DNA from: Nymphaea colorata
Taxonomy: Eukaryota > Streptophyta > Magnoliopsida > Nymphaeales > Nymphaeaceae
DNA: 64,000 nucleotides
Assembly (NCBI RefSeq): GCF_008831285.2
Contig: NC_045149.1
Span: 16,485,035 to 16,549,034 of the forward strand
Direction of reading: 5' to 3'
Positions 34,237 through 63,345 of the stretch are shown here, in pieces (position 1 is the stretch's first letter; each line of letters begins with the position of its first letter). Below the pieces are notes generated by a model. That model was not told where the DNA came from, searched no databases, and saw only the letters and a program-made list of their open reading frames with translations. Made by a program: the position numbers and the translations under genes.

Positions 34237-37225
34237 ATGAATCACAGCGTTCCTGAATGGGAGATGGAAGGAGGACAAAGGAGCTCTACCAAGACTGGAG
34301 CATGCGCCCTCCCCAATATCGACTCCTTCAGTGACAGCTTATCCACGTACAATCTCCTCTCTTTCTTCAACTTTTTCCCTTGTTCTGCTTTACTCTTCCT
34401 CGTGCTTATTCTTTTGTGGGTCTGTGTAGCTTAAGAGGCTTGCTTGCTGTACATGGTGCATATGTGTGTTTACACATGCATCCTTCTCTCTAGGACACAC
34501 AGAGATAACTAGCTATATCATAATCAAAATTTTGAAGTATGTCATGAATTAGATCATGATTATTTCGTAAGATCTTATGGTTTTGGCTCCCTTTCTTTTT
34601 TTTTTTCTCTCCTTTACTGATTCTTTGGTGGGTGGATTTAGGTGGGATTATGAAGTTGCAGAGCTCACATGGCAGAACGGCCAACTGGCAATGCACGGCT
34701 TAGGCCCGCCAAAGTCAAGCAGCTGCAAGCCCTTGCCAAAGCAGGTCTGGGAGAGGCATCAGGCCAGCGGCACCCTCGAGTGCATAGTGAACCAAGGCAC
34801 CGGGTTGCCCGACAAGCCATCGCCGATCCCCGAGGCGAAGGATCTCTCTCCATGGTTCAAGGACGCCTTGGTTCCTTGCTCCATCTCCGACGCACCCAGC
34901 TCCACCTTGCCCGGCTCCGACGGAGCGCTGCACCGGCCCCCCTTCGACCACACCATGGGTTCGGACTCCGGTGCCTATGCCGGCTCGTGCAAGGCCCCCC
35001 TTCCCGGCCTTGATGACCGCGGGCGCCATGAAAAGATGGGAGCCCAAACTCAGCAGTACTGCAAGCGCCAGAAGCTCGCGGTCGTGCCCGAATCCAGCCG
35101 CTCCGGCGCAAATCTGAGCATTTCTGGCAGCGCCACCTTCGGCCGAGACGACACGTTTGTATCCGTTGGCACTTACGAGACGAGCGGTCACGTCGACGGG
35201 CTGACCACGCCAGCCGGCTCCCCGGAAAATACGAGCACCGCGAAGGATGAGCAGGACTCGGTGTGCCACAGCAGATCCAAGGTGCACGTTGTTTCTCTAT
35301 AATTCTAGCACTTCTTGTTGAGCTTCCCGGAGTTCTAGCCGGAATATCCTTTGGCGACTCCAAAGAAGCGCATCCATCGTATCGATCTTAATTTTTTGTC
35401 AAGTTGGTCCTGATCGATTTACAATGTTTTGATGTGTTTCTGGGCATTCATTTCTTGAACATACCAAAGATGGAGGAAGAGAGTGAGAACTGCAAAAGCA
35501 AGGGTCAAGGAGCTCGTTCTTCAACTTCCTCCAGAAGAAGTAGAGCAGCGGCTACTCACAATCAATCTGAACGTGTAAGTTCACTTACATTGATTGACTT
35601 CTTCTTTTTTTATTTTTATTTTGCACTTCGTTTATATATATTTTATGATTATACGAGACCACAAACATTTTTTTATAGTCAAACCACCAATTTTTTTTTT
35701 TTTTTTTAATTCTCATATGATTAAATCTGGACGACGAGTGGTGTTTGTGAGGAAAAGTTGATTCCACATCCACAATTGCATCGGTCCTGCCTTTTATGGT
35801 CGAAAGAGAAGATAAAGAATTGATGGTAGCGCTTATGTTAACCTCGACAAGAAGAATCATTGTAAAAATTGATAATAATAATAATAAATATTAATAACAG
35901 CAGCAAAGAGAACAAAAAGAAGCAACAGTAATATAATAAAGTAATTACTATAATTAATAACAGTGAGGTGGTAAATATCTTGCAGAAAAGGAGAGATCGG
36001 ATCAACCAGAAGATGAAAGCTTTGCAGAGGTTGATCCCAAATTCCAGCAAGGTAACATATCTCACATCCTTACTGCGATGACCTGTCCTTGTGTTGCCTT
36101 TCATTTTGCTCGTTTTGGATTTGACTGCCGGCTACGAGAAAAGTGAGACGACAGACGAATCCCCTTCGTACAGATAAATGAATATTTATGGTGTCCCCAG
36201 CTTTCTGTGAACCATGATTGCAGGAACAGTGTCCTACCATTCACTGTTCTGCTATTGATATAGACTTTTCTCTTATGATCTCCTGGATTTTCATCAAATC
36301 AAGAACTTAGATATGAGAGTAAGTTCTTTCTGTTTTTCCCTTTTTAATTTAAATATGTAGAGATCACTTTTATGAGGCTAGCTTCATGAAGAAACGCAGC
36401 TGACAGCTTTGACTTTCTTGTCTAAAAGTTTTGGGACCCAGAGTTAAGCAAAACTTTTCACGATGGAGGGAAAAGATTAACAAAAAGTTTCTAAAAGAAA
36501 TATTTCAAACTCATAATGTATGCTATTATATGTTAAAAATCCGACTTCATTATAGTTACGAGGACATAATCAAACATGTGTGTACTTTTTTCGCTGCCCC
36601 ACAACTTGATAACTTCAGTATAGAAACATGCTGTCAAGTCTCGCTGACGAAGTGTACCTTCATGATGCAAAAAATTAAAGACGGACAAGGCTTCCGTGCT
36701 GGATGAGGTGATAGAGTACCTAAAACAGCTGCAGGCCACCGTCCAGATCATGAGCCAAACGAACATGCAGCAGATGATGATGCCAATGAACATGCAGCAG
36801 TTCCAGATGTGCATGCTGGCACAGATGAGCATGGGCGCCAACGCCGGCATCCGGCCGGGCGCTGCCGGAGTGTCTCCGATCCTCAACCCTTCTGGTTTCC
36901 AGCCACCAGGCCTTGTTGCGGCATCCGTGGCAGCGGCTGGCCCCTGTGATAGACTGGGAGAGAGAATGGCAGGGGCGTCGACGTTGCCCGATCCTTTCTC
37001 CGGCTTCCTAGCATGCCAGGCACAGGTGCGTTACAAGACCAAACATTAATCTAGAGTTCGCATGCTGCGAATCTTTGCCGGCGGATGTGAGTTTTAGGCA
37101 TCTCTAACAAAATTCCCCTTGTGAAAACTTTGCAGACCATGAACGTGGATCCTTTCAAAATGGCAGCAATGTATCAGCAACTGTATCAACAGCTGCCATC
37201 CAACGTCGATGGTTCAGGGGAATAA
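34237..37225 (+). CDS. UNE10: UNE10/PIF8-like bHLH transcription factor
   Basis: Six exons (34237-34346, 34642-35281, 35470-35574, 35986-36051, 36681-37025, 37136-37225) join to 451 aa. The N-terminus MNHSVPEWEME matches the UNE10 type. Residues 40-55 (DYEVAELTWQNGQLAM) are the active-phytochrome-B-binding motif, with Glu44, Leu45, Trp47, Asn49, Gly50 and Gln51. Exon 2 keeps clade marks such as SGTLECIVNQ, ALVPCS and DSVCHSR. The bHLH spans about 273-325, with the G-box contact residues His280, Glu284 and Arg288 in THNQSERKRRDRINQKMKAL, then SKTDKASVLDEVIEYLKQLQ. A Met/Gln-rich segment follows (NMQQMMMPMNMQQFQM) and the tail contains DPFKMAAMYQQLYQQLP. No phytochrome A motif was seen. The family acts in the nucleus as light-regulated repressors or activators. 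Exon 1 uses an unusual donor (AC|GTACAA), the only GT that keeps phase. The position before His280 is Thr, where Ile or Val is usual. Confidence 0.92.
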
Positions 37226-48039: not shown

Positions 48040-49020
48040 TCAAAACCTAGAGACGAACTTAGAGATCAAGCCCATCAACTCGGTGAGCGCCTCTCTCTCT
48101 TGGCTGGGCAAGTAAAAGGCGTGCTCCTCCTCCGGAAAAACGTGCAACTCCACCGCTTCCCTTCCCAGTTTCTTCAGTTCTGCGGTCAACAGCACGCTCC
48201 GGTCACTCAGCACGTCCCGACCTCCCGTCACAACCATCACCGCAACGTCCGGCAGCCCCTCTGCCGGCGGACAACAGAACGGGTGGTCTCTGGTCCTCGG
48301 TTCGTTGCTCTCTGGCCGTGCCAGCACCCAGCACGCATCTGCGATCTTCACGGTGAGAAACCCCTGTTCGTCCGATGCTTTCTCTGATTCTGTTCGCTCC
48401 TCCGAGCTGTAAAAGGGTTGTAAGAGCACCACGCCCTTGAGACCAGGCAGCTTGGGTCCCTCGTTGGAGGCGAGGACATTGTGAATGATGTTTCCACCGG
48501 CGCTGTCCCCCATGATGAAGAGGCGAGAGAGGTCAGCTGAGGCCAAGAGGTGTTGGCGAGCATCAGGGTTGGAAAGCCAACGAAGAGCAGCTCGCAGGTC
48601 GTCGTAGGCAGCCGGGAGGCGGTGCTCTGGCGCAAGGCGGTAAGCGACCGAGAGGACTATGGAGGACGTCGCAGAGGCGAGGCGAGTGGCGAGCCGATGA
48701 AAGTCGTCGACGCCAGGGGAGAAAAGGCAGAAGCCGCCTCCGTGAACGTAGACAATGAGCGGGAGCTGTTTGTCGGTAGAAACCGGCGGGTGGTAGATGC
48801 GTGCCCACAATCCGGTGGATGGGTCGAGGGTCACGTCGACGGAGGGGACAGGGTCGGATGCAGAGGCCGGGACAAAAAGCGGTGGGTGGTCGAAGTCCAC
48901 CACTCGTGTTACGGTGCCGTCCGGCTGGACCTGGATTAGGCACCACACGTCTATCTCCACCGCCGGATACATCATTGCCTTCGTCGTCGAGGTCTGCTCG
49001 ATTCGGGGGGTGGACTCCAT
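48040..49020 (-). CDS. Carboxylesterase, plant CXE class I (copy 1)
   Basis: Intronless, 326 aa from the Met at 49020. An upstream in-frame Met at 49107 is rejected because it lies beside the probable TATA element at 49110-49124. The alpha/beta-hydrolase-3 fold is evident: oxyanion-hole HGGGFC at residues 93-98, nucleophile elbow GDSAGGN with Ser173, Asp269 in GGRDVLSDR, and His300 in EEEHAFY. Other family blocks are YRLAPEHRLPAAYDD and SEERTESE. No signal peptide was seen, so it is probably cytosolic. Plant CXEs hydrolyse esters of small metabolites. The EERTxSE block recalls the CXE15/CXE18 side of the family, and AtCXE15 cleaves strigolactones, but the substrate here is unknown. It is the first of three tandem copies on the same strand. 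Confidence 0.92.
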   Translation of the reverse strand: MESTPRIEQTSTTKAMMYPAVEIDVWCLIQVQPDGTVTRVVDFDHPPLFVPASASDPVPSVDVTLDPSTGLWARIYHPPVSTDKQLPLIVYVHGGGFCLFSPGVDDFHRLATRLASATSSIVLSVAYRLAPEHRLPAAYDDLRAALRWLSNPDARQHLLASADLSRLFIMGDSAGGNIIHNVLASNEGPKLPGLKGVVLLQPFYSSEERTESEKASDEQGFLTVKIADACWVLARPESNEPRTRDHPFCCPPAEGLPDVAVMVVTGGRDVLSDRSVLLTAELKKLGREAVELHVFPEEEHAFYLPSQEREALTELMGLISKFVSRF

Positions 49021-49109
49021 CGTTGCTTGGGCTTCTAGGTATGCATTCGCAGCTACGAAACTGAAGATCCACAAGTTGTTCTGATATATGATACGTTTGC
49101 CTTGCACCC

Positions 49110-49124
49110 ATATATATATATATA
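49110..49124 (-). promoter_or_regulatory. Microsatellite-type TATA element of CXE copy 1
   Basis: A TATATATATATATA tract lies about 90 bases upstream of the CXE copy 1 ATG, the only TATA-like run at a suitable distance. Longer AT tracts lie further upstream at 49180-49201, 49320-49340 and 49371-49438. Confidence 0.45.
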
Positions 49125-49179
49125 CTCACCCCACACCACCCGGTGCTTGTTGACGGAATGCAGCTTTATGACGCTAGAA

Positions 49180-49367
49180 TTATATATATATATATATATA
49201 TGTAAAAAATGAGAGAGAGAGGGAGAGAGAGAGAGGTTTCCCTATTCAAGTACTATTTTTATCGATTGTTGTCTAACTATATTCATCTACCACATTTAAT
49301 TTATTTATGGAAGGCATACTATATATATATATATATATATTCACATTTAATTTATTTATGGAAGGCA

Positions 49368-49441
<74 letters not shown>

Positions 49442-49560
49442 AGAGAGAGAGGGAGAGACAGAGAGGTTTCCCTTTTCAAGTACTATTTTTATCGATTGTT
49501 GTCTAACTATATTCATATACCACATTTAATTTATTTATGAAAGGCATACTAAATTTTGGT
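49180..49560. repeat. Nested microsatellite and direct duplication upstream of CXE copy 1
   Basis: A unit starting in a GA tract (49210-49234), running through GGTTTCCCTATTCAAGTACT and ending GGAAGGCATACT (about 49319), recurs almost unchanged at 49441-49550. A third, partial copy of the CACATTTAATTTATTTATGG part lies between them at 49342-49370. (AT)n tracts at 49180-49201, 49320-49340 and 49371-49438 separate the copies. Confidence 0.9.
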
Positions 49561-49599
49561 CTGGATCCGGATGATTTGTTCAGATTCAGTTGTACCATA

Positions 49600-52500
49600 A
49601 AAAATTAGAGAATTCACAAGTAATGACTCAGCTTTCAATATTTTTATAGGTTACTGATTAATATTTGAAAGATTGTAAAGGGCCGTTTGACTTAATAAAT
49701 CAATTGATCTTCATTAATTGATGAAAAATGTTACATATGCCTAAAAATGCTTTGACTTTAGTAAAACAAACAATTCTGTGAAAAATTTTCAAAAGCCCCA
49801 TTTGTTAGGGTCAATGTCACATTCTGTACATACACGATCCCTGGGCCTTTTGTTTTAGCAATGAAACTTAGGAAATGGTCGAATCGTGAGGAGATGTAAC
49901 CGCAGTTTGCATGCCCATTGTCTAATGATAATAAGACGAGTGCGTGTTTGAGTAGAAGCGGCCATGGGAAAAAATTCATCCTGGAAAATAAATCTAACGA
50001 TCGAAATTTCTTCTATTAAGCGGCTGGCTTCTATTAACTTGAATTCTAATCTCTAGAGAAATGTAACATAGACACACATCTGAATATATAAGTGGGCTAT
50101 GTTGAGGCTCTACAATTGTGGCCGTGTTTGAATCGGGCCTGGAAGCATATGTAGCATGCCATCATTTTCCCTAAACATATTACGACACTCAATCCACTAT
50201 ATCTTTATTGATGCGGGAAGATCAAGTCGACGGGCCACCTCCCAAATTTAATTAATAAAAAAAGAGTATGAAGGCTATCTTAAATTTAAAATATTTTTAA
50301 CCAAAAAAATGAAACACATTTCTCAAATGCATTTTTCTAAAACTGTTTGCATGTGTGAAGCTGGCCACATATTAATCAACTTTCAGAATTTGAATCTAAT
50401 TGTTTCAATTGCTTTGGGAGTCAATTTCAACACTCAAAAAGCCAGAAGAAGAAGAACACGATATGTTGGAAACACCTCACAATTAGTTTTACGTCAAGGA
50501 TTTTCTAAGAACGAAGAAGGCTTCAAATATTAACATACTTATGTCTGGTATTCTCAGTTGTGTTAATTTAAATTAAGCTTTCCTACGTGCAATAAGACTA
50601 TGTCAAAAGAAAGACCAAACACGCAATTCAATGTAGCCCTAAAGCAGCGGAGCTGTTACACATATTAGATGAAATTATATCAGAAACCGCACCGCCTTGA
50701 TGGCACAAGGAAGACTCTTCTCCCGCCTCCAGAAAACCAGTCGAGCACCGGAAAAACAAGAAAGGGAAAGAGAAATGGCCGGATAAAATCAAAAAAAGAA
50801 AGGAGAGGCTGATCGATTTTACCGGAAACCAGCCATTGCCGTGCTGCCTTAGAGCTCTCCCTCCTTGGTGAAGGCAGATCGTAAGAGGCAACCTTCTCAA
50901 GAGGAAAGAGGTAGTCAGGTAGACGAGAAATCGTTCTCCCGTTTCTTGGTTTTTTTACGCGGTAAAGATGTGCAGAAAAACCGTTCAAACCCAAACGCAC
51001 GCGCACTTTCCTTTTATGTTCTTCAAAGATTTTTATCAGGGTCAAACAAAAGAAGATCCAAATCCATGGTCACTTTTTTTTTTGGTACATTGGAACGGTT
51101 TAGAAGCGCATTAACTAACTATAGCACGAGGTCGAACCACACCAATGAGATACTCCTCAATCAATAGATGACCAGGTGGATTGGGTAAAGAAAAGAAGAT
51201 CCAAATCCATGTTCACATAGAACTCCTTATCCGATCCTAAACAAACAAAACTAAGAAAAGTGCGTCCACCTCATAATATTTAAAGAACGCGGCAACAGCT
51301 GATGTTTTTTTAGTTTTTTCTTTTTAATGGAAAAGTAATATGAAACGCATCCAGTCTGCCATGCTTGTAATAGGCGTTATTAAAATAAAATAAGTTTTTA
51401 ATTTCCAAAGCATTTTTTAATTTTAAATAGACTTTTTTATATTATTTGAAAGAACATTTATGTTTTGCGCGGTTAAGTCTTTTAGGTTAGTGTTAACATA
51501 AATTGAAAATATGACTGTAACCAAGAAATAAAACATATTCCACAGTTTTTATAGCCCTTTTAAGCCATATAAAACTATATTATTGATGCAAACAGAAATT
51601 ACGTCATAAGAAGAACCAAACACTCTTATCAAATTGAATAGGGTTGTAAAACTTCTCATTCAAATCGGCAAAAAAAAAAAGCTCAACCAAAGGACAAGTT
51701 TGAACTTAAAACTTTTCTCATCACTAAAAACAATGATTATAGGGGTGTTTTGTTTTGTATTATTGAGGGGTGTTTGATGAGCTTGAAATTGAAGAATTTC
51801 AAAAATAAAATTATTGTTTTTTATGAATTGAGAAGTATATTATTAAACAACAATTTTGTATTATAGAATTATAACCTTATTGTCTAATCAAAACTCTGAA
51901 ATTATAATTATAATTTCAGAATTTTATAAATTTTTTATTCTCTCTCTTTAAGTTGTATGTTATGATGGATTTAATCCATCAATTATAAAATTTTGATTAC
52001 TGCTTTTATCAAACAAGTCATTTTCAGTTTTAAAATCAAAATTTCATACTATCAAACACGACAATTCATTTTCCTCAATAATATAGCATACTAAGCATGT
52101 GCTAGTGGCATACAGGGAGGGCTCAACTAACATGTGGCACTTATATTTGTAAAATATATTTCATTGGGTTGCCGGATCCATGTACATGTTGACACGTAAA
52201 TCCTTATATGTTTATCCATGGTTCTATAACTATAGTTAGCCATCACATTCAATTCATTTATGTATGACAAATCTAAATTCATGTCTGGTTCTGATTGATT
52301 CGTGCACCTTTTCCCCATCTCTCTCTCTCGTAATTCAGTAATTGTGTCACAAAAACTTGAAAAATTCACGGGTAATGAATCTGCTTTTAATATTTTTATA
52401 GGTAACTATTTAATATTTGATAAATTGAAAAAAGCTGTTTGACATAATAAAATAATTGACAAACACCTGCTTCATTAATTGACGAAAAATGTTAAAATCT

Positions 52501-52860
52501 TTAGTAATTTCTATGAAAAAAAAAATCACATTTTGTTTATACACTCTCCCTGGGCCTTTTTTTCTAATCTTGATGCTCATAAAATAGACGGAAACTAGAA
52601 ACATTGAAGAAATTGACAAAAAAATTGGTCCATGAAAAATTTTCAATTCAAAGGTAGTTTCTTTTTGATAAGGGTAAAATGGTCCTTTTTCATAAATTTT
52701 AAAGTTTTCAATTAATGGAGCATGTGCGTGTACGTTATTGTATAAATATAAATGGTTAGTTGTAACTTTTGAGAAGAAAAATGCATCAAGTGTCATTAAT
52801 TATTTGTCTGGCTATATATATATATATATAATGGTGGTGGACTGATGATTTCGATGAATA
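49600..52860. repeat. Spacer between CXE copies 1 and 2 with a dispersed duplication
   Basis: Sequence at 49600-49870 is similar to sequence at 52350-52580. Shared blocks include TTCAATATTTTTATAGGTTA, TTCATTAATTGATGAAAAATG and a CCCTGGGCCTTTT word, all in the same order and orientation. Between them are AT-rich sequence, GC-richer sequence at 50650-50950 of unknown role and a MITE-like element at 51758-52084. No gene is supported. Confidence 0.65.
51758..52084. mobile_element. MITE-like element with GTGTTTGAT termini
   Basis: The left edge is TATTATTGAGGGGTGTTTGATGAGCTTGAAATT, of which the outer 11 bases and the core GTGTTTGAT reappear inverted at the right edge (ATCAAACAC about 52053-52061, CCTCAATAATA about 52073-52083). 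The interior is AT-rich and non-coding, about 325 bp. The inverted core and AT-rich body fit a non-autonomous DNA transposon; the superfamily is undecided. Confidence 0.6.
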
Positions 52861-53407
52861 AATCTAAGGCCCTGATATGGATTTTGTTTATTTCACCCAC
52901 TTTTTATACTCACACTTGCAAACGCGTGTGACTGAGCACCTAGGTGAATTTTTTATGTCTCAGGACACGTATTCAAACAGGCAACCCTCTAATTAATTAT
53001 GTGTTGGGGGAAAAAGCCTGGACTTTCAGGAACATCTGTCATAAAGTTCTCAGAAAGTTGCTAAGAGGAGGGAAACTGCATATGCTTCTCATATAACACG
53101 GGCACACATAAATTTAGCTTTCACAAATTTGGACACTTTTTATATGATATTGAGACGGAGGAGCGATCCCTAAAGAGGTCAAAATCCGGCTCTCTTTCCC
53201 ATGTCGTGCATTGATCTGAAAAGCGGAACATATTGTCTTGATCAAATGAGAGTCCTGAACACAGTGTCTGCTTAAATAAATACCCAGAAGGGAACACGTT
53301 CAATCACGATGTAACAATCAAACAGGGGGGGACAACAACAGAGACTTACTTGAGAAATCAACCATAACGAAGACAAGATTAATGACACAGACATTGCGTC
53401 CTGGACA

Positions 53408-54337
53408 TCAAAACTGCGAGACGAAGGTAGAGATCAAGCTCATCAACTCGGTGGACGCCTCTCCATCAACACTGCGCACGTAGAAGGCATGGTCCTCCTC
53501 CGGGAAGACGTGCAACTCCACTGCCTTTCTCCCCAACTTCTTCAGCTCCTCCACCAACATCACACTACGGTCTCTCAGCAAGTCCCGCCCTCCCGTCACC
53601 ACCATCACCCCGACCTCCGGCAGCCTCTCTGCCGGCGGGCTACAGAACGGGTGGTCCCTGTTAGTCGGTTGGTCGCTCTCTGGCAGTGCCAGCACCCAGC
53701 ACGTATCTATGTTCTTTATGGTGAGGACCCCCTGCTCGTCCGATTCTTTCTCTGACTCTGTTCGCTCCTCCGTGCCGTAGTAGGGCTGCAGGAGCACCAC
53801 CCCCCTCAGCCCTGGCAGTTCGAGCCCCTCGCTGGAGGCCAGGACGTTGTGGATGATGTTCCCGCCGGCGCTGTCCCCCATGATGATAAGTCGAGAGAGG
53901 TCGGCTGAGGCGGAGAGGTGGTGTTGAGCATCCGAACTGAAAAGCCAGAGAAGAGCAGCACGCACATCGTCGAAGGCAGCTGGTAGGCGGTGCTCCGGTG
54001 CCAGGCGGTATGCGACGGAGAAGACGATGGAGGACGTAGCAGAGGCGAGGCGAGCAGCATGCCGGTGGTAGTCTTTGTAGCCCGGGGTGAAGAGGCAGAA
54101 GCCTCCCCCGTGGACGTAGACAATTACTGGGAGCGGTTTGTCGGCGAGGACCGGCGGACGGTAAATGCGTGCCCACAATTTGGTGGCCGGGTCGATGGTC
54201 ACGTCGACGGAGGGAACATGGTCGGAGGCGGACGCTGGGACGAAAAATGGTGGCTTGTCCAAGTCCTGCCGTGTGATGGTCCCGTCCGTCTGCACCTGGA
54301 TTAGGCCCAACAAGTCTATCGCCACCTCCGGATGCAT
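53408..54337 (-). CDS. Carboxylesterase, plant CXE class I (copy 2)
   Basis: Intronless, 309 aa from MHPEVAIDLL. It is the closest relative of copy 1 (shared IQVQxDGTxTR, PSVDVT, LWARIY and GVVLLQPYY blocks) but starts about 17 residues later. The oxyanion-hole HGGGFC lies at 76-81, Ser156 in GDSAGGN, Asp252 in GGRDLLRDR and His283 in EEDHAFY, so the catalytic triad is complete. The same small-ester hydrolase role is inferred; the substrate is unknown. No clear TATA box was seen in the 150 bases upstream. The coding region is much more GC-rich than the flanking spacers. Confidence 0.92.
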   Translation of the reverse strand: MHPEVAIDLLGLIQVQTDGTITRQDLDKPPFFVPASASDHVPSVDVTIDPATKLWARIYRPPVLADKPLPVIVYVHGGGFCLFTPGYKDYHRHAARLASATSSIVFSVAYRLAPEHRLPAAFDDVRAALLWLFSSDAQHHLSASADLSRLIIMGDSAGGNIIHNVLASSEGLELPGLRGVVLLQPYYGTEERTESEKESDEQGVLTIKNIDTCWVLALPESDQPTNRDHPFCSPPAERLPEVGVMVVTGGRDLLRDRSVMLVEELKKLGRKAVELHVFPEEDHAFYVRSVDGEASTELMSLISTFVSQF

Positions 54338-57300
54338 TGCTCGAATCGGAAAGGTTTGCGAAGTTTGAGAAGCGACGGCGAAGATTCAGGGGACGTTATC
54401 GTTCCTCGAGTTGGTAGCTCCAAGTTGGAAACTGAGACCGGCGGCACAACGAGACAGAGATAGAGGGTTTTGTCATTTTGATGCTGCCATTTAATTTTAA
54501 GCAATGTTTGAAAATAAGAGGACTAAAATCAACGATGACGGGTGCAGCATCTCGAAGGAACGTGCCTATCTTAATTAAAAAATTTACAAAATGGAAAAAC
54601 AAAACTGCACATGACAAACATTTCCTTGAACTCTTGTTTTATGTTCTAATTTTATAATTGCCTTCAATATTCATTCCTCATCAATTCTCATGGTGATTGA
54701 CGAATTCCGAACCAATTTTTCGTGAACTATTTCGACTGGCCCTTAAGTTTTCCGGCCAACAAAACAGTTCTTCGATGAACACTTGTAAAACAGTGTTTGA
54801 AACGCGATCGTATGAAATTAAGTGGATTCTCATGAAGAAAGCTCATGATTTGGGTTACTACTAATATTACTTGATAAGCTGATAAATATGGAACAAGAAC
54901 CAAAGAGACAATTTCGTTTTAAAAGAATCTAAATGTTGAGAGCGAATTTCTTAGATTGGAACTTACAAATGCAACGGACCTCCTCCTTTGATATTGAAGA
55001 GCGGCCGGCGATGGTGCCCAGACAGCAGCGGAACGGCGACTTTGTTCAACTTTGTGATAGAAAACCCTTCTTATAGAGAAGGAAAAAGGGAAGTCAAGAA
55101 AAATAACTTTTATAAAATTTGGTTTCTTTGTTTCACCAGGCAAATGCGTCTATTTGGTTGTTGGAACGTCATATCAAGACCCAGACGCGGTAAGAAAAAG
55201 TTTGACAATGGTTTCATAATAAAAACAAGAGTCAAGAGGGCAGCAGCCTAATTAGAATTCAAGATTGTTTTCTTTTGCATGCTCGAGAAAGAAGTTAAGT
55301 TATTCACAATCAATTAAATTAATTAACGAATCGAAGAGATTGACAATAGAGTGTGACCAATCAAAAAAAAAAAAAAGACCAAGAATAAGGGGACGTCTCT
55401 CTTAACTAAAGAGGTGAATTCTGAAAGAAAAAAAATTTCTGGATATTTATATCCTCATCCAGATATATAGAAAAGCGCTGCCAAGACATGAAAAGAGATT
55501 CAAAAGCAATCTAAATGATCAAATTATGGTCATGCAGGGCTGAACCATCACCGGCTCTCTGTCTTTTTGTTTGTCACGCATGTGAACCTCACATGGACAA
55601 CTAACGCTCTCACCAACACGAGTCCTCAAAAGAGCTATCGGGTCCCGCTAGCTTTCTTATGCGCCAGAACAAAAATGAGGGAAGAAGATTCTCTTAGTTG
55701 AACTAGTTGACGTGAACAACTAATTACTTTATTTTTATATTAATTAATTTAATATTTGTTTTTATATATATTCCATTAAAAACGTGTATTTACAAACAAA
55801 TGTTTTTTCAGCCAAGATCAAACCAAAAAGCCATATTGGCACAAACGTCGCATCATGGATGACAGTAATCGCGATATATTTGGGGTCTGAATGAATGCAG
55901 AGACCGACGGCTGAGAGTCACCGGAGATCGGAGAAAGCGCAGCCAAGGAAATGGAAGCCGGCTGGCCACTCGAGATGTTTCAATCTTCAGGTTTGGTTGA
56001 CCTGATCATTTTAGCTGCAGATATGGGCATATTGGTAATCTAAAGCATCACTTAATATTTTCAGTTAGAAATTTTATTGTAAAGTAATATAAATTATACC
56101 ATTTTATTTTTATGTAGTATAAACAAACATAAATTTAACAATTTTATTTTTATCTTATAATCACATATTTCCTTTCATTTCTTTTCTTAATCATTTTTCT
56201 TTCATTTTCACCCCCCCCCTCTCTTTCCTTCCCTTTTCTTTCATCCAAACAAAATGTAAAAGTGGACCGTCAAACTGATAGGGTTGCAAAGGATGAGCAG
56301 CATTTTGTTATTTTCTCAATAGTTGAGGGGCTCAATGTAATTTTTGTAAAATTTTAGCAGGTGTCAGGATGAAAACTTAGTTTTACTGAAGTTAAATATT
56401 TCAAAGTTTTGAAAACCTATTTCATTTGATTGGGTGACACCGGTTTTTTAATAGCTTAAGGAATGCCAGGTTTTTACGAAACCAAATTTTGCAAAGGCGG
56501 GTTTTTCCTCATGCTCAATTTTGATGACACCCAAACATTCAAAACAGGAAAACCTAGTTTTAGGATATCATCCAAACACTCCCTTACAAATTTCCAAAAT
56601 CTCGTTTAGTCATTGAAGCTACCACAAGCTGCAGTTGCTCATATATACACTTGTTTTTCCTTGAGAGGAACGCCACCAATCCGGTTGCAACGATAGTAGC
56701 ATTTAGAACTGAGTTCTGAAAACCATCACTCACAGGTAATTTTGGGGGAGGGTGGTGTGGATTTTCCTCAAGTAAATTTCTAAAGAACGTAGGTAAATAT
56801 ATGTTACATACACATCCGAAGGTATTCAAATATTAAGATTCAAAGTATGGATCACATTAGTAGGACATTAAATTCCAAATCAATCACATGCAATGTTGAA
56901 ATGTCCCAAATACAGCCGCAGTTCCTCATTTATCCTGATAGACGACTTAGCTTGTGATATTTAACTTGACTATGTTTTTATGAGATACTGAAAGAAAGAT
57001 GATGCTTTGAAAGGGTAAAGGCCTCCCTAATATGATCATACTGTTCACAGTTGCTGTTAAAACAATGATCAACTGATTTAGCAAATTTTTTTTGGCATTG
57101 TTGTCCGATAAAAAAAATTTAAAAACAATTTGCACACAAGGGATGAACAACTACTCATGTAAAAGTCTTTTATTGAATATTGCATACGTCATCAGGCTAC
57201 ATTTTTGTATTTTTAGGAACACAGATACATGATAATATAAGGTAACAGAATATAGTACACGAAAAGCAATTACTGAAGCACGAAAAAAAAAAAAAAACAC

Positions 57301-57347
57301 GCAGATCCATGGCTCGCTTTTCAAGAGAAGCGACGAAACAACCAGCG
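54338..57347. other. Spacer between CXE copies 2 and 3
   Basis: AT-rich, without a supported gene. A GC-richer patch at 54980-55040 with a minus-strand GTAAGTT donor-like site could be an untranslated exon of copy 2. A C-run lies at 56212-56219 and a MITE-like element at 56358-56577. Confidence 0.45.
56358..56577. mobile_element. Second member of the TTTGGATGA MITE-like family
   Basis: The right edge inverts to GTGTTTGGATGATATCC, and the left edge reads GTGTCAGGATGAAAAC. The interior shares AGCATGA-AAAACC and AAACCAAATTT-type words with the element at 32650-32990. The termini are more diverged, so it looks older. Confidence 0.45.
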
Positions 57348-58277
57348 TTAATGGCAGCCCAAGCGAGAGATGAAGGCGGAGATGAAGCCCATCAGCTGCT
57401 TGAACGCAGGATGCCCCTGGCGGCGCCCGTAAAAGGCGTAATCCTCTTCCTCAAAGACGTGCAGCTCCACCGCCCCCCTTCCTAACTTCTCCAGCTCCGC
57501 TGCCACTCTCAGGCACCGGTCCTTCAGCACATCCTTGCCGCCTGCTACCAACATCAGGCCGACGGCTGGCAGGCCGGAAGCAGGAGGGCTGCAGAATAGG
57601 TGGCCTCTAGTCGATGGTGGGTCCGTGTCCGGCAGCGCCAGCCTCCAGCAAACATCGGAGAATGGCATGGTGAGGTAAGCGTGCTCGTTCGACCACCTAT
57701 TCTCCGACTCCGTCCGCTCCTCCCCGCCGTAGTACGGCTGCAGGAGCACCACCCCTCTCAGGCTTTCCAGCACCTCCGCAGGCGCGCCGATGTTCAGGGC
57801 GTTATGGATGATGTTTCCACCGGCGCTGTCGCCGATGAGGAAGAGTCGGGAGAGGTCGGCGGAGGCAGGCAGCTGGCGGCGCGCATTTGGGGAGTAGAGC
57901 CACTGGAAGGCGGCAAGGAGATCGTTGTAGGCTGTTGGGAGGCGGTGCTCCGGCGCGAGACGATATGCGAGAGAGAAGACTACGGAGGATGTATCGGAGG
58001 CGAGGTGGGTGGCGAGTTGGTGGTACTCGACGGAGGCGGGGGAGAGGAAGCAGAAACCGCCGCCATGAACGTAAACTACGAAAGGGAGGGGCTTCCCGGA
58101 TGGGTTAGGAGGAGTGTAAATGCGAGCCCATAGGCCAGAGGAGGAGTCGATGGTTACGTCGACGGAGGATACGGGGTCGGAAAGGGACTCCGGGACAGAG
58201 AACGGTGGGTGGTCGGCGGCGGCCGGCCTGACGATGTTGCCATCCTGGTTGACATGAACTTGGGGAAAAAGTTCCAT
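57348..58277 (-). CDS. Carboxylesterase-like protein lacking the catalytic His (copy 3)
   Basis: Intronless, 309 aa from MELFPQVHVN. An upstream Met at 58379 is rejected because the TATA box at 58333-58341 lies between the two. Fold marks are kept: HGGGFC at 71-76, Ser151 in GDSAGGN, Asp249 in GGKDVLKDR, plus YRLAPEHRLPTAYND and GGEERTESEN. At the position of the catalytic His the frame reads EEEDYAFYG, with Tyr280 (codon TAC at 57440-57438) where copies 1 and 2 have CAC. The frame is otherwise intact. Loss of this His is known from the gibberellin receptor GID1, a CXE relative that binds its ligand without cleaving it. The protein may be a weak esterase, an inactive binder or a young pseudo-enzyme; the last two are inference. 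Confidence 0.9.
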   Translation of the reverse strand: MELFPQVHVNQDGNIVRPAAADHPPFSVPESLSDPVSSVDVTIDSSSGLWARIYTPPNPSGKPLPFVVYVHGGGFCFLSPASVEYHQLATHLASDTSSVVFSLAYRLAPEHRLPTAYNDLLAAFQWLYSPNARRQLPASADLSRLFLIGDSAGGNIIHNALNIGAPAEVLESLRGVVLLQPYYGGEERTESENRWSNEHAYLTMPFSDVCWRLALPDTDPPSTRGHLFCSPPASGLPAVGLMLVAGGKDVLKDRCLRVAAELEKLGRGAVELHVFEEEDYAFYGRRQGHPAFKQLMGFISAFISRLGCH

Positions 58278-58332: not shown

Positions 58333-58341
58333 ATTATATAG
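58333..58341 (-). promoter_or_regulatory. TATA box of CXE copy 3
   Basis: The minus strand reads CCTATATAATTCC, a near-perfect plant TATA box, ending about 55 bases upstream of the chosen ATG at 58277. It would place transcription start near 58300, downstream of the alternative Met at 58379. Confidence 0.65.
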
Positions 58342-60540: not shown

Positions 60541-61015
60541 ATTCAGACAATGAACACAGAAGATGGACAAGAAGTGTTGTACGTAGTAATCAAAGTTGTT
60601 GCTTCAATAGGTGATCAAAATAATGATGCATCTGTTTTCGAAACAATGGTGTCTACATGGAGAAAGATTGACAAACGGGAAAGGGAATTAATGGAAAAAG
60701 AGATCAAAGAACAAAAATAACGTCGAGCGAGTCGTGTTTCTTCATCTCTGACAGCTCCTGCTACATCCATTCTCCGTCGTAGAAAGCGCTGAGGTTCCTG
60801 GACTACTTCGCTCTACTCTCTACCTCCGTCGTTATTCGTCTCCCAGGGCGTACCAGCACTCGACCTCTCGCTCATCTCTTCTTCCAACTTCGTGCTTTGG
60901 CATTCTGCCGGCGTCGGAAAACCAAAACCCGTTTGACCATCTAAAACTGGCCCCTGTTCCAAGTTTCCGGATTGTGCTGTTACTGGCAGCGACAGGGCAC
61001 CAGCTGAACGTTGCT
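60541..61015. repeat. Segmental duplication, copy A (3' end of the orphan gene)
   Basis: Matches 62874-63345 in the same orientation. Shared blocks run in order from ATTCAGACAA through CATGGAGAAAGATT, GAGTCGTGTTTCTTCATCTC and CGCTCATCTCTTCT to CGACAGGGCACCAGCT-like sequence. It covers the last 70 codons of the orphan frame and about 270 bases downstream. Confidence 0.88.
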
Positions 61016-61829
61016 GGCAGATATGCTCCCTCACCAGGTGGCCATCTTCTTCCTTCTTCCTTTCCACGGAACGCTTCCCCTGTCTTCGTGCAGGCGTAAT
61101 TTTAGCTGTTGGACCGGAGATGGAATGCGTGCTTTCAGCATCATCAACAGCCACGGAATCTCGTCGTTTCGGCCTCATCGGCTCTGCTTGGTGCTCTGTT
61201 GGAGGCAAGAATTCGGTTCTTGGCAAGGGAGCAGAACACTGACCTTGATCGAAAACGTCAATTTCCTTTATGTAAATCAGTCCTTGATCATCAACAGCCA
61301 GTTCAAGTCTCTTTCGGCACAGTTTCTTCTCTGCTGGAGTCGAGATTTCGGAACTTGGTGCAGGAGCAGTGTGTGTTCTCTCCTCTGTTGCAGTCAAGAA
61401 TTCAGCTGTTGGAATAGAGGCAGGGCGGTCTTCTTCCTTCATAGTAACATTAGCGCTTTCAGAATCAGGTTCTTTCAGATTCCGGAGGCACGTTTCCGTC
61501 TCCGCTGGAGGCAAGAATTCCTTTCTTGAGTGAAAAACGGACCGCGCCTGGCGGTTAGCATCTCGCCGAATGTGGCCATCGTGTTCACCTTGGAAAGTCG
61601 GCGAAACCGGACGGACTTCAGAAGGGTTGCCGGAGATTCTCTGGCTACTTGGTGGATTCTTTACTTTTGCCTCCACAGGCATCTCAGGGTGGTCGGCGCA
61701 TTGCAGCGATCTCTCCCGCAACAGGTCGACCTCAGTTGTAGGTGGATTCAATATTGTGCGCTGGTTGTGATCCCCGTCATCGTCATCGCCGCCGCTTTCA
61801 ACGACGTCTCCGGAGTCCTTCACTTCCAT
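60813..61829 (-). CDS. Unrecognised charged repeat-containing protein, 338 aa
   Basis: A single open frame; the ATG at 61829 is the first Met after an in-frame TAA, so no N-terminal extension is needed. I do not recognise the family. The protein is hydrophilic, rich in Glu, Arg, Pro, Ser and Thr, has no signal peptide or membrane segment, and opens with an acidic patch (GGDDDDGDH at 13-21). A degenerate motif recurs: EFLPPAE (104-110), EFLTATE (143-149), EISTPAE (161-167), EFLPPTE (206-212), KITPARR (243-249) and FPTPAE (304-309), mostly 18-45 residues apart and separated by basic or acidic stretches such as KKLCRKRLEL and VERKKEEDG. This suggests a disordered scaffold grown by repeat duplication. 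Its 3' part is duplicated at 62874-63345. Spliced extra exons cannot be excluded, nor that the frame is non-coding. Confidence 0.5.
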   Translation of the reverse strand: MEVKDSGDVVESGGDDDDGDHNQRTILNPPTTEVDLLRERSLQCADHPEMPVEAKVKNPPSSQRISGNPSEVRPVSPTFQGEHDGHIRRDANRQARSVFHSRKEFLPPAETETCLRNLKEPDSESANVTMKEEDRPASIPTAEFLTATEERTHTAPAPSSEISTPAEKKLCRKRLELAVDDQGLIYIKEIDVFDQGQCSAPLPRTEFLPPTEHQAEPMRPKRRDSVAVDDAESTHSISGPTAKITPARRQGKRSVERKKEEDGHLVREHICQQRSAGALSLPVTAQSGNLEQGPVLDGQTGFGFPTPAECQSTKLEEEMSERSSAGTPWETNNDGGRE

Positions 61830-62873: not shown

Positions 62874-63345
62874 ATTCAGACAACGAACGCAGAAGATAAA
62901 CAAGGATTACTGTATATAGTATTCAAAGTTCAATCGGTGATCAAAAGAATGACTCCGTCGGTGTTCGAAAGAATGGTGTTTACATGGAGAAAGATTAACA
63001 AATAGGAAGGGGAATTAAAGGGGAAAAAACAAAAAAGGAAACCGTCGAGTGAGTCGTGTTTCTTCATCTCTAGCAGCTCCTGCTGGACTCGATCAGCCAT
63101 CCTCAGTCGTGTACTTAACTCTACCATCTTCCTCCTCGTCATTCGTTTCTGCGTTTGTCGCCACCGGTGAAGGATTCGAAGAGGACGTACCATCCGTCAA
63201 GCTCACGCTCATCTCTTCTACCAACTTCCTGGCTTGCTCTTCAGCAGGCGCCGGAGAATGGAAGCGCGATTGACCATAAAAAACCGGGCCCTGTTCCGAG
63301 TTTCTGGATTGCGGCCATACTGCCATCGACAGGGCACCAGCTATG
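62874..63345. repeat. Segmental duplication, copy B
   Basis: A diverged copy of 60541-61015 with small insertions and deletions. Homology stops near 63345, where the sequence equivalent to the middle of the orphan protein should begin, so copy B is 5'-truncated or joins a different upstream exon. Confidence 0.88.

Follow-up and report, generated by a model that had tools for sequence, protein, structure and literature searches.

A tandem carboxylesterase paralogue of Nymphaea colorata with tyrosine at the position of the catalytic histidine in an otherwise intact gene

We analysed a stretch of 64,000 nucleotides of the Nymphaea colorata genome (contig NC_045149.1, positions 16,485,035 to 16,549,034; the whole stretch is called the window below), which holds three tandem carboxylesterase (CXE) genes, copies 1 to 3. 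Copy 3 encodes tyrosine at residue 280, where copies 1 and 2 carry the histidine of the Ser-Asp-His catalytic triad. Its frame of 309 amino acids is uninterrupted and retains the nucleophile Ser151 and the triad acid Asp249, as a preliminary description made from the sequence had reported. The copy 3 branch has been under purifying selection over most of its length, its product is confidently predicted to fold, and it belongs to a clade separate from those of the plant CXEs for which loss of this histidine is already known. We infer that copy 3 would have lost ordinary hydrolysis, would still bind a ligand and may have acquired a new role. The likeliest reading, with chances that are about even, is that it is a maintained, non-hydrolytic paralogue, kept for another use of the same pocket.

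The three frames lie head-to-tail on the minus strand and span 48040-58277 of the window (Table 1). All of them match the Pfam domain Abhydrolase_3 (E=6e-50 for copy 1, 1e-51 for copy 2, and 2e-43 for copy 3). Identity is 75% between copies 1 and 2 and 59% between copy 3 and either of them. When the window was searched by tblastn with the three proteins, one 38-residue match (E=0.63) was found outside the three genes. Copy 3 has the traits of plant class I CXEs, namely the Abhydrolase_3 domain, the α/β-hydrolase fold, the oxyanion motif HGGG (beginning at residue 71), the GDSAG elbow, and the triad Asp, and lacks only the triad His, which is needed for catalytic competence. Around this position, copies 1 and 2 read F-P-E-E-[E/D]-H-A-F-Y and copy 3 reads F-E-E-E-D-Y-A-F-Y. 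The segments are equal in length and differ by two substitutions, P276E and H280Y, with zero inserted residues, ruling out a frameshift or an insertion near the motif. The preliminary description had the His/Tyr difference right but misaligned the letters, setting seven-letter motifs beside an eight-letter one. One C-to-T change at the first base of codon 280 leads from His (CAC) to Tyr (TAC), and an error of sequencing or assembly at this base would have the same outcome. We consider such an error next to negligible, since residue 276 nearby likewise differs from the one in copies 1 and 2, copy 3 differs at 70 of the 303 compared positions where copies 1 and 2 agree, and the assembly was processed with Pilon, as stated in the excerpted part of PMC7015852. 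The same excerpt gives a genome of 409 Mb in 14 pseudo-chromosomes and 804 scaffolds.

The conservation of the His column was assessed in the genome itself and in bacterial relatives. A CXE search of the 407.8-Mb assembly (783 contigs) gave 82 matches. Fifty loci were fetched, frames of at least 180 amino acids were retained, and 42 were aligned (43 minus one cut duplicate). Ten partial frames were excluded from the count of the His column, leaving 32 that cover at least 85% of the core. His is present in 30 of these 32 frames, the exceptions being copy 3 with Tyr and locus L022 with Ile. L022 is the GID1 orthologue of this genome (E=2e-170 to GID1A). After removal of near-copies, 26 of 28 genome frames have His, and one of the excluded partial frames, L045, has Arg. 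The bacterial set comprised 72 loci with a suitable frame, drawn from the best 80 of 536 confirmed relatives; these rows were found and filtered by patterns including HGGG, and only their Ser, Asp, and His columns are informative. His was found in 69 of the 72 and Gln in three. Moreover, fragments of a copy-1/2-like CXE are carried by repeats in the genome, and all 17 that were fetched keep the His although each has an in-frame stop. The presence of His in genome paralogues, bacterial relatives, and repeat fragments therefore indicates that Tyr is derived in copy 3, and the genome and bacterial counts rule out chance or an alignment artefact.

Two observations were made alongside these comparisons. 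Three bacterial loci on Devosia and Rhizobiales contigs (L070, L092, and L099) carry Asp in place of the nucleophile Ser (GEDAG) and Gln in place of the catalytic His (TQGFF), and keep HGGG and the triad Asp; they form a double-substituted natural alphaproteobacterial lineage. The repeat-borne fragments belong to a dispersed family (G000 loci L049, L050, and L131-L145 on C3, C8, C13, C14, C15, and small contigs), in which the L049 and L050 repeats share about 93% identity across some 3.7 kb. The stop stands at the identical place in all 17 fetched fragments, nine of which are on contig C15. Apparently, a gene piece was captured by a mobile element and then multiplied.

Pairwise dN/dS values by the NG86 method were 0.141/0.534 for copies 1 and 2, 0.291/1.12 for copies 1 and 3, and 0.303/1.00 for copies 2 and 3. 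In a three-taxon codon model (303 codons), omega was 0.17 on the branch of copy 3, a branch that takes in the stretch leading back to the common ancestor of the other two copies, and 0.21 on copies 1 and 2. Bootstrap ranges overlapped (copy 3, 0.09-0.27; copies 1 and 2, 0.15-0.29), with the branch length at its bound in one of 100 replicates. Forcing omega to 1 on the copy 3 branch lowered the log-likelihood from -2587.65 to -2625.24. The 2lnL penalty for a final neutral phase is 4.0 if it spans 5% of the branch and 8.5 if it spans 10%, indicating constraint over about 95% or more of the branch. The codon model thus rejects a neutral pseudogene over most of the history of copy 3 and is compatible with a short final neutral phase. 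These results bear out the earlier claim that the triad base was lost in an intact gene; the dN/dS of copy 3, which the preliminary description had left to be estimated, points to purifying selection, with neutral decay confined to roughly the last 5% of the branch. The split between copy 3 and the other two copies has an NG86 dS of about 1.0-1.1, near the peak of the Nymphaealean whole-genome duplication at a KS of about 0.9, a value obtained with another estimator than NG86 (PMC7015852, excerpt). At this depth, orthologues of copy 3 would be predicted throughout Nymphaeaceae.

Several points weigh against a maintained role. The placement of H280Y within the branch is not fixed, and the constraint may all predate the substitution. 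Positions on which 85% or more of the remaining genome paralogues agree were taken as family-conserved. Eight of them are changed in copy 3, which ties with L016 for the highest number among unbroken frames (other frames depart at 0-8, and the broken L044 at 18). Three of the departures, at 183, 230, and 242, are common to copies 1 and 2, and five (V103L, D225G, P227L, V243L, and H280Y) belong to copy 3 alone. The copy-3-specific changes are not enriched in the hand-chosen active-site elements (12/63 versus 58/240, Fisher p=0.50). The start codon of copy 2 is not preserved in copy 3, which begins about six codons later, at an ATG that corresponds to an ATA in copy 2. The changed conserved positions and the lost start could reflect early decay. 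Precedents from the Apocynaceae [4+2] cyclases and their relatives point the same way, as far as the excerpts of PMC10873640 report: the cyclase Tyr is not essential, and one ancestral cyclase became more active with Y300F; clade 1b proteins without Ser and His showed zero detected activity; and ester hydrolysis was close to nil in clade 1c proteins, which have a full triad. Copies 1 and 2 therefore cannot be assumed to be active. Of the earlier description of them as active-type neighbours, the intact His stands, but the activity does not follow.

These points lead to the explanation that the catalytic His was lost not long ago and that copy 3 has zero function and is beginning to decay neutrally. 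It would account for the changes at other conserved positions, and broken copies do occur in the CXE arrays of this genome (the C10 array with its interrupted matches, L044, and L045). The data are compatible with a neutral phase covering as much as about 5% of the branch, and zero stops arose in 31% of 400 neutral simulations over 5% of the branch. The open frame of copy 3 alone thus adds little. On the other side, the frame is fully intact, the protein has a confident fold prediction, and a neutral phase, if there was one, must have been brief. We regard a recent loss of function as unlikely, but as an explanation to be taken seriously.

Another explanation is that copy 3 is still an esterase, with reduced or altered hydrolysis in which His199, His289, Tyr280 itself, or a bound water serves as the base, or which acts on activated substrates only. 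Copy 3 keeps Ser151, Asp249, and an intact HGGG oxyanion hole, and it has gained histidines. An extra Trp195 and a new His199 lie where it aligns with residues 215-222 of AtCXE15, a loop of the binding pocket, and His289, nine residues past Tyr280, is also new. Both histidines, however, lie off the triad column in the alignment, and AtCXE15 and GID1A lack His at both positions, which speaks against a stand-in base at either. Furthermore, the equivalent mutation in kudzu 2-HID (H301A) abolished esterase activity, according to the excerpt of PMC9663428. Residual hydrolysis appears distinctly unlikely.

The AlphaFold model of copy 3 has a pLDDT of 88.3 and a pTM of 0.91, on par with the confidence for copy 2 (pLDDT 88.9); its first 30 residues are of low confidence. 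The top structural match of the model is AeCXE1 (PDB 2O7R; Z 36.2, rmsd 2.3, 292 aligned residues), and AtCXE15 and CXE20 have Z scores within 1 of this value. AtCXE15 is both the best PDB sequence match (E=3e-46) and the best Foldseek match. As modelled, copy 3 would be a stably folded class I CXE-type α/β-hydrolase. A maximum-likelihood tree was built from 34 proteins, 27 from this genome and seven PDB chain parts. Copies 1 to 3 form their own group (support 100/100, stem 0.72), and their placement near the CXE15/GID1 side is weak (79/89). GID1A joins L022 at 100/100, AtCXE15 groups with L009 and L021 at 100/97, and tabersonine synthase (TS), catharanthine synthase (CS), and coronaridine synthase (CorS) group with HID at 100/99, with copy 3 outside. 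A dense tandem CXE array at C10:3.26-3.65 Mb, with several interrupted copies, also groups with HID in this tree.

For a maintained, non-hydrolytic copy 3, the following mechanism can be proposed. Serine esterases need the His to deprotonate Ser. Tyr280 would replace this general base acting on Ser151, and ordinary serine-esterase turnover would be lost. Binding of a small ligand would still be expected because the oxyanion hole, Ser151, Asp249, and the compared pocket positions remain. Tyr280 would then line the pocket or form hydrogen bonds instead of serving as a base. If copy 3 is functional, it would represent an independent His-to-Tyr loss in a plant esterase, outside GID1 and the eudicot family of alkaloid cyclases; its two His-bearing tandem neighbours would serve as controls for what a Ser-Tyr-Asp active site does; and the locus would bear on whether plants can repeatedly arrive at new enzymes or receptors by removing the base.

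The coordinates of the genes and of the residues discussed are collected in Table 1. Copy 1 has an internal Met pair at 48975/48972. A candidate TATA box precedes copy 3; the TATATAA pattern has no match up to 300 bases from copy 2, and its matches around copy 1 fall inside or close to TA repeats. Just upstream of copy 1 (49181-49554) is a direct repeat of 144 nt (94%) with TA microsatellites, and diverged direct repeats (72-80%) lie between copies 1 and 2 (49590-49881 and 52342-52590). Elsewhere in the window, direct repeats (77-84%) are found at 60631-61005 and 62958-63342, the first overlapping an open frame at 60813-61829. The open frame at 34577-35302 resembles a phytochrome-interacting-factor-type start (ELTWQNGQLAMHGL).

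Table 1. Tandem CXE genes of the window and selected positions in copy 3
Feature	Position in window	Strand	Basis and remarks
Copy 1, CXE paralogue	48040..49020	-	326 aa from first ATG, His300 intact; translation, Pfam, alignment
Copy 2, CXE paralogue	53408..54337	-	309 aa, His283 intact; translation, Pfam, alignment, AlphaFold
Copy 3, CXE / Abhydrolase_3 paralogue	57348..58277	-	309 aa, Ser151-Asp249-Tyr280; translation, Pfam, own-genome match L001, AlphaFold
Tyr280 codon (TAC) at the catalytic His position	57438..57440	-	translation and alignment
Asp249 codon, triad acid retained, in GGKD	57531..57533	-	translation
Gly225 codon	57603..57605	-	alignment; Asp in 23/28 genome paralogues compared, including copies 1 and 2
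His199 codon, copy-3-specific, in stretch aligned to AtCXE15 binding-pocket loop	57681..57683	-	alignment; Gln in copies 1 and 2
Ser151 codon, nucleophile retained, in GDSAGG	57825..57827	-	translation
TATATA(A), candidate TATA box, -63 from copy 3 ATG	58335..58340	-	pattern match only

Among known systems, the gibberellin receptor GID1 (PDB 2ZSH and 3EBL; L022 in this genome) was the one to which the preliminary description had compared copy 3. The two proteins are indeed members of one superfamily. GID1, in which the His position is occupied by Val or Ile, shares with copy 3 the fold, the retained Ser and Asp, the lost His, and an intact gene. L022 is, in addition, the only other His-less frame among the 32 near-full-length ones. 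The preliminary description had raised a receptor-like role as speculation; a GID1-like copy 3 would bind a small signalling ligand and a protein partner without catalysis. Several differences speak against it. GID1 has HGGS and GDSSG where copy 3 has HGGG and GDSAG, and Val or Ile where copy 3 has Tyr. Copy 3 has Phe, Ser, and Cys at the residues aligned to the contact residues Asp243, Arg244, and Tyr247 of GID1A. In GID1, the N-terminal stretch before Asp-Gly forms a lid; copy 3 has 11 residues before Asp12-Gly13, compared with at least 27 in L022. The excerpt of PMC9663428 agrees with the lid assignment. Copy 3 is thus ruled out as a GID1, and a receptor of this type is very improbable because the clade, motifs, and N-terminal length of GID1 are absent. 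GID1 is an analogy only.

AtCXE15, a strigolactone hydrolase (PDB 8ZRF and 8VCA), shares the oxyanion HGGG with copy 3 but retains the catalytic His where copy 3 has Tyr280, and its triad acid is Glu instead of Asp. Its grouping with L009 and L021 rules out copy 3 as its orthologue. AtCXE15 has a mobile N-terminal helix; the part of AtCXE15 compared begins after its N-terminus, and in copy 3 this end is about six codons shorter than in copy 2 and is modelled with low confidence. Unlike copy 3, the plant carboxylesterase AeCXE1 has an intact triad, Ser169-Asp276-His306 (PMC9663428, excerpt).

By analogy, the closer precedent, which the preliminary description did not name, is tabersonine/catharanthine synthase. 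The Apocynaceae [4+2] cyclases are of esterase ancestry, carry Tyr or Phe in place of the catalytic His, and perform non-hydrolytic catalysis, and the Tyr ended the remaining hydrolysis while cyclisation was taken up (PMC10873640, in the excerpted text). The tabersonine, catharanthine, and coronaridine synthases (PDB 6RS4, 6RT8, and 6RJ8) have the class I CXE fold, as does copy 3, and TS and CS have Tyr for the catalytic His, as at Tyr280. This correspondence relies on the excerpted statement in PMC10873640; in our alignment, a two-residue gap places Asp of CS and Gln of TS in the His column and shifts their Tyr to the adjacent position. The cyclases also differ from copy 3 in having HGAG rather than HGGG, and in gaps that fall ahead of the Tyr and opposite residues 197-202 of copy 3. 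Membership of copy 3 in the HID-like cyclase clade is ruled out by its different clade and its HGGG. A repurposed enzyme of specialised metabolism, as TS and CS are, is by this analogy more likely for copy 3 than a hormone receptor. GID1 and the Apocynaceae cyclases are known cases of plant CXEs without the catalytic His; what differs here is its loss in a separate clade, with Tyr, in an intact HGGG/GDSAG frame. Titles and abstract openings, in partial listings that do not establish absence from print, turned up no publication on this gene or on a Nymphaea CXE. It is possible, though doubtful, that a water-lily CXE clade independently evolved a Ser-Tyr-Asp 'triad' in an otherwise intact HGGG/GDSAG site and now serves as a non-hydrolytic catalyst or a small-molecule sensor. 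It would then mark a third convergent route from esterase to new function via removal of the His, after GID1 and the Apocynaceae cyclases.
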